Below are positions 5,643 through 60,274 of a stretch of 64,000 nucleotides of DNA, one piece after another; the first letter of the stretch is position 1, and the number at the start of each line of letters is the position of its first letter. Under the pieces are notes generated by a model, which ran no database searches, was not told the origin of the DNA, and saw nothing but the letters and a program-made list of their open reading frames with translations. The stretch spans positions 64,057-128,056 of the forward strand of contig CACBUE010000002.1 in assembly GCA_902542325.1 (NCBI GenBank), in the 5' to 3' direction. The position numbers were made by a program, and so were the translations under genes. The DNA comes from an uncultured SAR86 cluster bacterium (lineage in GTDB: Bacteria > Pseudomonadota > Gammaproteobacteria > Magnimaribacterales > Magnimaribacteraceae).

Positions 5643-6068
5643 TTAGGCTGAGTGACAAGAATTACATTCAAGTTTTCGGCAAAGTTTATAATTTTTATAA
5701 TGCGCAAAAACTATAATCGATGCTCCGATAACGGTAAATAATTTCTCTCCGAACTCACCCCAAATAAGTGTGCCAATAGTTACAGCAAAAATTAAAGTAA
5801 TGATCCCGAGCAGTCCAGTGACAAAATAGCTTAATTTTGAATGATTTCTCATTCCTCTAAAGAGTGCATAAAGGCTTACTGGTATTGCAAGCAATAATAG
5901 CAGGTAATGTATCAATTCATTGTTATATGAAAGCGTTACGTAACCTGAAAACAAAACTAACAATATAGGCACCAACAAACAATGAGCCAAACAAATAAGC
6001 GATAGGCCAATTGCTGTTTTATCTGAATATTCTTGTGTAACTTTCATTATGTTTTGAAGGCGATGCAC
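5643..6068 (-). CDS. MerC-domain membrane protein
   Basis: DKTAIGLSLICLAHCLLVPILLVLFSGY and C-terminal Cys-rich KLCRKLECNSCHSA; true start may be MKVTQ. Confidence 0.75.
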   Translation of the reverse strand: MHRLQNIMKVTQEYSDKTAIGLSLICLAHCLLVPILLVLFSGYVTLSYNNELIHYLLLLLAIPVSLYALFRGMRNHSKLSYFVTGLLGIITLIFAVTIGTLIWGEFGEKLFTVIGASIIVFAHYKNYKLCRKLECNSCHSA

Positions 6069-53204: not shown

Positions 53205-53483
53205 ATGAACTTGAAGCAAAAACTTGGATTTATCCTTGGATTACTTTTTGTAATCGGCATATCAGCTGATCCAATTTTCCATTCCTTCGAAGAAGATGAA
53301 CATCATCATGAAGTTCATGAGTCTTCTGACTGCCAGGTTTGCGAGTCAGAATCTTTCAAAGCATTTGCTCTTAGGGTTAATGAAGAGCATGCCCTAGTTA
53401 CAAATATTTCTATCAACTCAGAAGAAGATCATGTTGCTCATTTTTCTTCAGATTTTAGTGCGAGGGCACCACCAAACTCTTAA
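53205..53483 (+). CDS. Small His-rich secreted protein
   Basis: Signal peptide then HSFEEDEHHHEVHESSDCQVCESES; C-term SARAPPNS. Confidence 0.65.
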   Translation: MNLKQKLGFILGLLFVIGISADPIFHSFEEDEHHHEVHESSDCQVCESESFKAFALRVNEEHALVTNISINSEEDHVAHFSSDFSARAPPNS

Positions 53484-53526
53484 GTTTATTTAAAACATAT
53501 TTTTTAATTTAAATTTAGGAGAAAAC

Positions 53527-55776
53527 ATGAAAGTTTCCTTTTATATGCTCATGGCGATGAGCTTAACAGTAACGCAAATAAATGCCGATGAACCGACACC
53601 TCTTGATACAGAGAAAGTAGACGAAGTCGTAGTTACTTCTTCAATACTTAATACAAGCAGGATATTAAATCCTCTATATGTTATCGATGGCGATGAAATA
53701 AAAGATGACGCAACTACTTCACTAGGTGAAGCAGTTGATAGTTACTTAGGTGTTTCAATTGCCGATTATGGTGCCGCAGTTGGTCAGCCTTCCATAAGAG
53801 GTATGTCTGGACCTCGAGTGAAAATTCTAAAAAATGGAATGGTAAATAGAGATGTCTCAGGACTTGGTGTAGATCACTTAAATGATGTTGATTTACATGA
53901 CATCGAACAAATTGAAATCATCAAAGGACCATCCTCTTTACTTTATGCCAATGGAACCATTGGTGGAATTATCAATGTTGTAAACAATACCATTGCTAGG
54001 GAGGATTTTGATGGTCAAGAAGTTAATGCAGGATTGGAAACTCAATCCGCAAACGATGGTGATATTCAAGAGTTCAATTACAAAAATCTTCTAGGCGGAT
54101 GGCTTAATTTTAGTCTGGGCTATAAAAATACCGAATTAGGCAATTTTGATATACCTTATGGGGCTGTAGTTCACGAAGAAGAAGATCATGGTGATGATGA
54201 TCACGATGAGCATGAAGAAGAAGCTCTTTCTTATGTTGAAAACTCTGATTTTGCTTCTGAAGCAAAGCAATTCGGTGTTTCAAGAACAGGAGAATGGGGA
54301 TATTTCGGAATGAGTTATGAAAATTTAGAGAGCTTATATGGAATACCTTTTCACGGAGACGAGCACGGAGATGAGCACGGAGACGAGCACGGAGACGATG
54401 ATCACGATGATGAGCACGGAGACGATGATGATGAGCACGGAGATGAGCACGAAGGAGAGAGAATTTTCTCTACTACTGACCAAACGAGCTATAACTTAGC
54501 CGGCTTATACAATATTAATGGAGGTTTAATTAATTCTATAAGCTATAACTGGAGAGACACAGAGTACTCATTAACAGAAGGTCATGCAGAAGAGGAAGGT
54601 CATGATGATCATGAAGAAGAAGAGCATGAAGAACATGCACCAACTGTCTTTACAAATGATGCAACTGAATACGGCGCTATCTTTGATCTATCTTCAGACT
54701 CATTTACTCAAAAAGTAGCATTAAATTTCGTTGATGAAGATTCCGCAATTGTTGGTGAAGAAGCTTTTATGAACCCTGCTAATAGTGAAGAGTTCACTAT
54801 TGGTTATTTTGTCAGTACAGACTTTGACCTATTTTATCTTGATGCAGGTTTTAGACTTGACCAAATAGAGAGGACTGGAAGTGTCACCGATGAAGATCAT
54901 GGAGATATCGACTACTATAAGGTAGATGATGACACTAATAGTTTCGCTCTTACTCTCGGCAGAGATATAAGTGACAGTCTGGATATAAGCGTAGGTTTTG
55001 CTAGCGTTGAAAGATTGCCTTCAGTAATTGAGCTTTTCATGAATGGTCCACATATGGCAACTGGAAGACTTGAAACTGGTAATCCAAACCTTCAAAGCGA
55101 AACATCGGATAATTTTGATATAACATTAAACTTTGATAATGGTAATTTTTACGCATCAGCCAGTTACTACATAAATGACGTAGATAATTACATAGCACTG
55201 CAAGACGAGCTCGATGATCATGACGAACACGGAGATGACGACCATGGCGATGATGATCATGACGAACACGGAGATGACGACCATGGCGATGATGATCATG
55301 CAGCACATGCTAATTTGATTCACGCTAATTACATTCAAGAAGACGCAGAATTCAAAGGTTATGAATTTGAGATCGGAACAACTGTGAGCTTAGGATCCGG
55401 TGATTTAACATTCTCTTTTGGAAGAGATGATGTCACTGCTGAATTTTCTGATGGACATAATGTACCTAGAATAAATCCCGCAAGAAATATCTATTCTTTG
55501 ACTTATGTTGAAAACGATTGGGTTTTCAAAATGAGCTTGAAAGATGTTGATGAGCAAGACGAAATAGGTGAGGGAGAGACTGTTACTGAATCCTATCAAT
55601 TGCTAAATGCCAGATTAACAAAAACCTATGATCTACCTGGTTCAGCTGAATTAAAAGTTTCTATCTTTGGTAGCAATTTGCAGGATGAGGTTGCAAGAAA
55701 TCATTCATCATTTGTTAAGAATGAAGTGCCTCTAGCTGGTAGAAATTATGGTGCTAAATTTAACTACAAATTTTAG
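53527..55776 (+). CDS. TonB-dependent outer membrane receptor with His/Asp/Glu-rich loops (ZnuD-like)
   Basis: Plug domain VDEVVVTSSILN...PSIRGMSGPRVKILKNGM...IEIIKGPSSLLYANGTIGGIINVV; His-rich loops HGDEHGDEHGDDDHDDEHGDDDDEHG. Confidence 0.92.
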   Translation: MKVSFYMLMAMSLTVTQINADEPTPLDTEKVDEVVVTSSILNTSRILNPLYVIDGDEIKDDATTSLGEAVDSYLGVSIADYGAAVGQPSIRGMSGPRVKILKNGMVNRDVSGLGVDHLNDVDLHDIEQIEIIKGPSSLLYANGTIGGIINVVNNTIAREDFDGQEVNAGLETQSANDGDIQEFNYKNLLGGWLNFSLGYKNTELGNFDIPYGAVVHEEEDHGDDDHDEHEEEALSYVENSDFASEAKQFGVSRTGEWGYFGMSYENLESLYGIPFHGDEHGDEHGDEHGDDDHDDEHGDDDDEHGDEHEGERIFSTTDQTSYNLAGLYNINGGLINSISYNWRDTEYSLTEGHAEEEGHDDHEEEEHEEHAPTVFTNDATEYGAIFDLSSDSFTQKVALNFVDEDSAIVGEEAFMNPANSEEFTIGYFVSTDFDLFYLDAGFRLDQIERTGSVTDEDHGDIDYYKVDDDTNSFALTLGRDISDSLDISVGFASVERLPSVIELFMNGPHMATGRLETGNPNLQSETSDNFDITLNFDNGNFYASASYYINDVDNYIALQDELDDHDEHGDDDHGDDDHDEHGDDDHGDDDHAAHANLIHANYIQEDAEFKGYEFEIGTTVSLGSGDLTFSFGRDDVTAEFSDGHNVPRINPARNIYSLTYVENDWVFKMSLKDVDEQDEIGEGETVTESYQLLNARLTKTYDLPGSAELKVSIFGSNLQDEVARNHSSFVKNEVPLAGRNYGAKFNYKF
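54352..54453 (+). repeat. Degenerate 12-bp (CACGGAGAYGAG) tandem repeat encoding HGDE/HGDD
   Basis: Seen directly; expanded in multiples of 3. Confidence 0.85.
55222..55299 (+). repeat. Perfect 39-bp tandem duplication encoding DEHGDDDHGDDDH x2
   Basis: GACGAACACGGAGATGACGACCATGGCGATGATGATCAT repeated twice. Confidence 0.9.
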
Positions 55777-58532: not shown

Positions 58533-58799
58533 TTAAGTTTGCCTTTTTAGTGTTTTTAATATTTCTTCAACCTTATCATCAAAATCCTTTTCATCACTTA
58601 ATGCTTCTCTAACACATTCTTTCATATGTTTTTTTAATATTCTTCCTTCAACACCCGCAATAGCATTTCTAACTGCCTTGATTTGATTGAGTATATCAAT
58701 GCAATATTTATCGTCATCAATCATGTTGGCAATTCCGCGAATTTGCCCCTCAATCCTGTTAAGACTAGGAATTTCTTCTTTATGGCATGGATTTTTCAT
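58533..58799 (-). CDS. CsoR/FrmR/RcnR (DUF156) metal-sensing transcriptional regulator
   Basis: LNRIEGQIRGIANMIDDDKYCIDILNQIKAVRNAIAGVEGRILKKHMKECV. Start MKNPCHKEEIP preferred over the longer track start. Confidence 0.9.
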   Translation of the reverse strand: MKNPCHKEEIPSLNRIEGQIRGIANMIDDDKYCIDILNQIKAVRNAIAGVEGRILKKHMKECVREALSDEKDFDDKVEEILKTLKRQT

Positions 58800-59161
58800 A
58801 TGAATACAGGAATTATATAAGTAAATATCGTAGCAAAAATGAACAATACAACTGAAATGTAATAGACGTATCTTGATCGTTTTCTTGTTTGCATGCATAA
58901 CCTTCCTAACTCGGGATCTGAGGGACAGGGCATATGATAGGTTTTATAGTTGGCATAACCCGCTGTTATCAACATGACAAGTGCAAAAATAGTTATTTGT
59001 GTCTTGTATTGAGACAAGGTAATAAGAAAAGGTAAATACGTAAGTAGTGAAGCAAAAGAAGCGCCAGCACCTAAAGCAACAAACATTGCAGGTAGGGCGC
59101 AACATATCAACGTTGATGAAGAAGCAAACAGTGATAGAAAGTTGACCGATTTATCTTCCAT
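58796..59161 (-). CDS. MerT-like membrane transporter
   Basis: SSTLICCALPAMFVALGAGASFASLLTYLPFL with CC pair; C-terminal hydrophobic helices. Confidence 0.7.
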   Translation of the reverse strand: MEDKSVNFLSLFASSSTLICCALPAMFVALGAGASFASLLTYLPFLITLSQYKTQITIFALVMLITAGYANYKTYHMPCPSDPELGRLCMQTRKRSRYVYYISVVLFIFATIFTYIIPVFI

Positions 59162-59565
59162 TAATTTATATTAATAATTTTTAAGCCAGTAGCATTCTGG
59201 CCATTAGCTAGAATTTTTTGCTCTATTTCCTTATATTCAATAGCTTTATCTTGTGAGTAAGCAATTAAAACTTTTCCTTTGTTAAGGTCCACATCAATTT
59301 TTTTTACGTTTCTATCTTTCTCGAACGTCTTCTCTAGACCTTGGGCGCAAAAATCACATACCATGCCAATTACACTAACTACCGCAATTTGGCAGTCTTC
59401 AAGATCTTTAATAAAGTTTTGGTACCTATCAGGATCTACATCAAGATCTGTTCCATCAATCAGTTCTCCGTGAACATGACTTTTATGGTCATGATTCATA
59501 TCATCCGTAGCAAACAAAGAATGAGAAATCATAAAACTAAGGCCAATAATCAAAAATTTATTCAT
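59161..59565 (-). CDS. Periplasmic heavy-metal-associated (HMA, MerP-like) protein
   Basis: Signal peptide; VVSVIGMVCDFCAQGLEKTFEKDRNVKKIDVDLNKGKVLIAY (GMxCxxC). Confidence 0.85.
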   Translation of the reverse strand: MNKFLIIGLSFMISHSLFATDDMNHDHKSHVHGELIDGTDLDVDPDRYQNFIKDLEDCQIAVVSVIGMVCDFCAQGLEKTFEKDRNVKKIDVDLNKGKVLIAYSQDKAIEYKEIEQKILANGQNATGLKIININ

Positions 59566-59573
59566 ATCATCTC

Positions 59574-60176
59574 CTAAAATCTATACATCAAATGTGAGTC
59601 CCATTCAGTCTTGTTGTTATATCCAAACTCAATTAAAAAATTTCCTTTGAAAAATTTAAGTACGGGAAAAGTTGACCAATTCTTCAAAAGATCATTTTTT
59701 TTGGATTTCACCATAATCCAAGTGTGAAAGTCTCCGTATTCGCCCAAATAGGGTGCTAAACCAATCTGCAAGTATTGATCTTCAAAATCTATAATCTCAT
59801 TCTCTACTTTTTTGTAACCAAAACCAGCAAACCATCGTCTAGTTTCCCAATCTCCATGAAGACCATAAAATTTATTCTCAATCCCTTTGGAGCTTACTCC
59901 AGATTGGAAATATAGGTTTCTTTGGGAATATTGAGTGTTTTTTCTATTCAAAAGGTAAGTGAGTCTGAAATACGAATAGTTGGAGCTCAAAAAATCATCT
60001 TTTATAGCCTCAAAACCTAATGAGTACTTATAAGTTGGTGAATAATGAAGATATAGAGAATCACGCATGTTATCTGAGTGACTCATTAGTGTTGAGCCTC
60101 CTGAATAAGAGATGGGTCTTGCTTCTGCAACACTGCTTACAGCAAGAATGAGAAATAATAGTTTCTTTATACCCAT
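59574..60176 (-). CDS. Predicted outer-membrane beta-barrel protein of unknown function
   Basis: Signal peptide MGIKKLLFLILAVSSVAEA, alternating aromatic strands, C-terminal HLMYRF. Start at 60176 preferred over the track start. Confidence 0.6.
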   Translation of the reverse strand: MGIKKLLFLILAVSSVAEARPISYSGGSTLMSHSDNMRDSLYLHYSPTYKYSLGFEAIKDDFLSSNYSYFRLTYLLNRKNTQYSQRNLYFQSGVSSKGIENKFYGLHGDWETRRWFAGFGYKKVENEIIDFEDQYLQIGLAPYLGEYGDFHTWIMVKSKKNDLLKNWSTFPVLKFFKGNFLIEFGYNNKTEWDSHLMYRF

Positions 60177-60274
60177 GGGGGGTATATTAGCACAAACTAC
60201 ATAGGTTAAAAGTATTCTAATAAAAGAGAGAACACTTCCTTTTTTTAAGAGGAACCTTATTCTCATTCTTGAGG

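Follow-up and report, generated by a model that had tools for sequence, protein, structure and literature searches.

The cassette studied here lies at positions 58533-60176 on the minus strand of the window, i.e. the whole stretch of 64,000 nucleotides which was analysed. Its source is a SAR86-type marine gammaproteobacterium with a streamlined genome (1.31 Mb in 38 contigs, 89% complete). The ORF list has placed here the four tightly packed minus-strand genes described by the initial annotation, including the overlap of the repressor gene with the end of the MerT-like gene. In the order of transcription, these encode a barrel protein of 200 amino acids (59574-60176), a secreted HMA protein of 134 amino acids (59161-59565), a MerT-like membrane protein of 121 amino acids (58796-59161) and a CsoR repressor of 88 amino acids (csoR, 58533-58799). 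A gap of 8 nt separates the barrel and HMA genes, the HMA and MerT-like genes overlap by 1 nt and the MerT-like and csoR genes by 4 nt; the AGGAG motif at the HMA start overlaps the stop codon of the barrel gene.

The barrel protein begins with MGIKK and ends with MYRF. AlphaFold has predicted 12 strands after its signal peptide with a mean pLDDT of 68 (moderate confidence), which agrees with the earlier assignment of this terminal gene as an outer-membrane barrel, and the protein combines the signal peptide, even strand number and aromatic last residue (F) expected of outer-membrane beta-barrels. With this model as query, the top Foldseek matches were membrane barrels with KdgM first, none of them at E <= 0.001, and no sequence family was matched in Pfam and further profile and database searches. 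The barrel protein is similar to the 12-strand porins KdgM and NanC in predicted strand number and size, whereas the sequence and fold matches to them are not significant and it stays without family assignment; the search for a database homologue was given up, as Foldseek returned generic barrels only. Carriage of the cassette by phages or plasmids was also dropped, since the barrel had no match in viral contigs and plasmids.

The HMA protein scores 32.1 bits against PF00403 (cut-off 24.8, E 1.5e-7) and contains the CxxC site GMVCDFC, in line with the signal-peptide HMA protein first read from the sequence; it carries a His-rich arm as well. It is closer to CopZ and the Cu-ATPase domains than to MerP. 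It does not reach the cut-off of the MerP model TIGR02052 (18.0 bits against 92.55) and also falls short of the curated CopZ cut-off. In the MerT-like protein, C20 and C21 are located in helix 1 and C79 and C89 in the loop between helices 2 and 3, and these four residues are kept in at least 97% of 88 members. Its score against PF02411 (26.2 bits, E 9e-6) is under the cut-off of 32.9, though the conservation of both Cys pairs and an hhalign probability of 91% with one canonical MerT bear out its description as a CC-containing MerT-like membrane protein. The structural model of this protein is weak and unfit as a fold-search query.

The repressor scores 97.2 bits against PF02583 (Trns_repr_metal; cut-off 22.8, E 7e-28), and its proposed membership of the CsoR/FrmR family is well founded. 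Its best match among PDB sequences is the copper repressor of Streptomyces lividans (4adz, E 2e-22), followed by another CsoR (4m1p). Analysis of the ligand residues has highlighted the Cu(I) set C33, H58 and C62 with the second-shell residues Y32 and E79 in all the aligned members (98 sequences), and this C-H-C ligand scheme is established for the CsoR family (PMC10141476). His6 in the N-terminal arm is likewise invariant (98/98), with no role assigned to it. A CsoR of the C-H-C type lets go of DNA at high Cu(I), and therefore the genes of the cassette should be switched on under excess metal; the Ni-sensing relatives InrS and RcnR use a fourth ligand. Cu(I) is probably the metal which is sensed and handled.

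Published Cu-CsoR sites are type-2 inverted repeats, TAC-N9-GTA, flanking G/C tracts, with ATATACCCCTNAGGGGTATAT as the Streptomyces consensus (PMC3902906). Of the 20 positions which this consensus specifies, 17 are matched by the box of the window, ATATACCCCCCATGGGTATAA. The operator ATACCCCCCATGGGTAT (TAC-N9-GTA; 60169-60185, minus strand) encloses the start codon of the barrel gene, an ATG at 60174-60176, a feature which was recognised in the present analysis and does not appear in the initial annotation. Of the csoR-bearing loci whose upstream DNA is intact, 82/82 have the box (one of them with N8 instead of N9); locus L103 carries it, and it is absent from the three CsoR-less sets L106, L107 and L109. 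Box and start codon overlap in 78 of 83 unique loci, at offset 8 in 71, offset 7 in one and offset 14 in six. Among the 71 unique loci with offset 8, the start is ATG or GTG, codon 2 is always GGT (71/71) and codon 3 varies between ATA, ATT, ATG and ATC. The start-codon operator is thereby a clear case of a DNA-binding constraint setting the coding sequence. In the six offset-14 loci, all from SAR92/Porticoccaceae, the box is asymmetric in the opposite sense, with the start codon at its right edge. As the open frame of the barrel begins at the box codon in many loci, an earlier start is not available there.

The -10 element TAATAT (60184-60189, minus strand) ends 7 nt before the barrel ATG, and the -35 of the window is weak. 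Across 73 unique promoter regions the -10 element is conserved and a TTGAC -35, where present, lies mostly 16-17 nt upstream of it. A Shine-Dalgarno (SD) motif is missing at 79 of 82 barrel starts, whereas it is found at 64 of 94 HMA starts. The spacing of the -10 element and the missing SD motif together favour a leaderless mRNA, the first nucleotide of which would be the A of the ATG. Elsewhere in the genome TACCC-N5-GGGTA has a single exact match, which is intragenic (L018); this match and an N4 variant (L016), also inside a gene, look like chance and were set aside as further CsoR targets. A class-wide scan for the operator returned mostly chance matches besides the true cassettes.

The MerT-like gene was detected in 15 of the 61 relatives' genomes, all of which have the four genes in the same order. 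A scan of named contigs yielded 223 relatives, and in the best 80 of these 223 the order is also kept, barring cuts at contig ends and locus L078, in which csoR was not recognised. Hence the conserved neighbourhood, on which the initial annotation had made its proposal depend beforehand, has been observed in 15/15 relatives and in nearly all the uncut loci among the best 80 of 223. The best 80 of 223 come from SAR86, SAR92/Porticoccaceae, OM182, K189A, AqS3 and, with a few records, from alphaproteobacteria; metagenome bins, which could be mis-binned, are among these records. When the three structural proteins are placed in a tree, those of the alphaproteobacteria and some of those of SAR92 are interspersed with the rest, positions which would be compatible with transfer between lineages. 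The distantly related loci L106, L107 and L109 have the barrel, HMA and MerT-like genes without CsoR, and in L106 and L109 a gene for a small secreted Cys/His-rich protein is situated immediately upstream of the set. CsoR was matched in 15/15 carriers and in only one other of the 61 genomes, G022. There, a promoter of the cassette's design with its start-codon CsoR box is followed by a DUF4396 gene, csoR and a CDF efflux gene (L127:5962-7602); the MerT-like cassette was sought in the G022 genome and not found.

P-type ATPases (PF00122) are missing in 60 of the 61 genomes of the SAR86 order, against matches in 14/14 control genomes. A P1B Cu+ ATPase was found neither in the window genome (89% complete) nor in the one-contig relative G005 (95% complete). 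In a class sample of 369 genomes, 11 of which carry the barrel, the copper ATPase CopA exceeds the cut-off in 0/11 carriers compared to 288/358 others (Fisher P=3e-8, a value inflated by shared ancestry and streamlining). Among 42 genomes with named loci, of unstated completeness and picked mostly outside typical SAR86, CopA occurs in two, scoring 408 and 418 bits (cut-off 397). Many of these 42 carrier genomes measure 2-3.5 Mb, so the loss of CopA is not explained by small size alone. Genome streamlining is nevertheless a confounder for the absence of CopA from cassette carriers. The sole family-matched contrast, within the SAR92 family, gives CopA in 2/10 known carriers and in 44/102 others which were not sorted by carrier status, and is not significant (P=0.19); the order of G302, taken as a control, comprised three genomes only. 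The cassette itself is not indispensable, since 46 of the 61 SAR86-order genomes have no match to it though nearly all of them are without P-type ATPases (many of these genomes are incomplete).

A repressor which Cu(I) should release, a membrane protein carrying two pairs of Cys residues, a secreted HMA protein and a barrel, in genomes where CopA is missing, make copper clearing the best reading of the locus. We consider it slightly probable (roughly 55%) that this is a Cu(I)-inducible, ATP-independent cassette for trans-envelope copper handling, probably export, which stands in place of CopA. According to this reading, at low copper apo-CsoR would occupy the box, covering the end of the -10 element as well as the probable transcription start and the barrel ATG, and transcription would be blocked. 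Binding of Cu(I) at Cys33, His58 and Cys62 would release CsoR from the box, and the leaderless mRNA would then give the barrel, HMA, MerT-like and CsoR proteins, with CsoR autoregulated. The MerT-like protein may pass Cu(I) between its Cys79/Cys89 loop on the cytoplasmic side and the helix-1 pair Cys20/Cys21. In the periplasm the metal may be received by the secreted HMA protein, and the barrel may either release it outward or keep it at the outer membrane. The more specific proposal can be put forward tentatively, at somewhat below even odds: an undescribed ATPase-free export of Cu(I) over both membranes by a MerT-like carrier, an HMA shuttle and a barrel, replacing CopA in abundant marine bacteria, in which an operator fused to the start codon fixes the first residues of the protein.

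The direction of transport is the weakest step of the copper-clearing reading. In mer systems MerT works inward, which speaks against export, and the inward transport of Hg(II) by MerP and MerT is the precedent for an uptake cassette in which the barrel, HMA and MerT-like proteins would bring copper or another soft metal in for cuproenzymes, e.g. the cytochrome oxidase for which the window has a gene. The retention of both Cys pairs in the MerT-like protein and the ZnuD-like TonB receptor which lies close to the cassette in 7/80 loci (best 80 of 223) would also suit uptake. However, CsoR-type control turns the genes on when copper is already high, so that import would defeat itself, and the absence of CopA from carriers suits export better; uptake is unlikely for these reasons. 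The initial annotation had suggested the uptake or handling of a metal other than mercury, or else an undescribed trans-envelope route, with a CsoR regulator. A coherent and conserved non-mercury, trans-envelope cassette under this regulator is upheld, whereas uptake is less well supported, as the CsoR control in genomes without CopA points to efflux or detoxification. About equally improbable is a buffering role in the envelope, where copper would be bound and passed on within the periplasm, either to sequester it or to supply cuproproteins, with no net transport by the barrel. The His-rich arm and CxxC of the HMA protein fit such a role, as does the PepSY_TM gene adjoining the cassette in 21/80 loci (best 80 of 223), which might carry out metal reduction, but the barrel and the inner-membrane MerT-like protein are always kept, even in the CsoR-less sets, and this suggests movement across membranes.

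The identity of the metal may also be questioned, as the invariant His6 of CsoR could complete a four-ligand sensor of the Ni/Zn type and the related G022 locus has csoR beside a CDF efflux gene. Sensing and handling of Ni(II), Zn(II) or Co(II) instead of copper is still improbable, since His6 is off the InrS/RcnR W position by the alignment offset, the nearest CsoR matches are copper repressors, the Tyr/Glu second shell is conserved, and the copper ATPase is missing where the cassette occurs. A variant of mercury resistance, which the MerT-like and HMA genes and a MerC gene elsewhere in the window could bring to mind, is very improbable and was rejected. MerA was over the cut-off in 0/61 genomes, its best matches resembling lipoamide-dehydrogenase relatives, and the cassette contains no MerR gene, just as had been noted at the outset for both; import of mercury without MerA would make the cells more sensitive.

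Compared with the known systems, the cassette shares with mer MerT/MerP a three-helix protein (helix-1 Cys pair and loop Cys residues) beside a secreted HMA protein. It differs from the mer operon in having CsoR instead of MerR and no MerA, in its added outer-membrane barrel and in scores below the MerT and MerP cut-offs; the loop Cys residues are 10 apart in the MerT-like protein and 6 apart in mer MerT. With the csoR-copZA efflux operons it has in common the C-H-C CsoR and the TAC-N9-GTA type-2 operator, whereas it has MerT-like, HMA and barrel proteins in place of a P1B ATPase and its operator holds the start codon. A likeness to the predicted promoter is seen in nreAXY of Mesorhizobium, in which a CsoR/RcnR-family repressor acts on an mRNA found to be leaderless by 5'-RACE; its metal is Ni(II) and its type-1 operator lies between -35 and -10, unlike the cassette box over the -10 end, likely +1 and ATG (PMC12724321). 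Except for the barrel, the parts are of known kinds, and the literature searched held no description of the assembly, promoter or distribution of the cassette.

Copper toxicity is of importance for the plankton of the surface ocean, and CopA ranks with the most common defences of bacteria against copper. Abundant lineages without a detected P-type ATPase need another copper defence, for which the cassette is a concrete candidate that can be tested, as its inducer, promoter and carrier are predicted.

The surroundings of the cassette have shown some further genes. The PepSY_TM-like gene, possibly a metal reductase, is directly downstream of csoR in 16 and divergent upstream in five of its 21 loci (e.g. 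L051:6627-7289). In the window, a ZnuD-like TonB receptor gene preceded by one for a small secreted His/Cys-containing protein occupies 53205-55776, and in L103 such a receptor is next to the barrel gene. The MerC-family gene (PF03203) of the window is located at 5643-6068, and MerC genes are found near the cassette in 7/80 loci (best 80 of 223).
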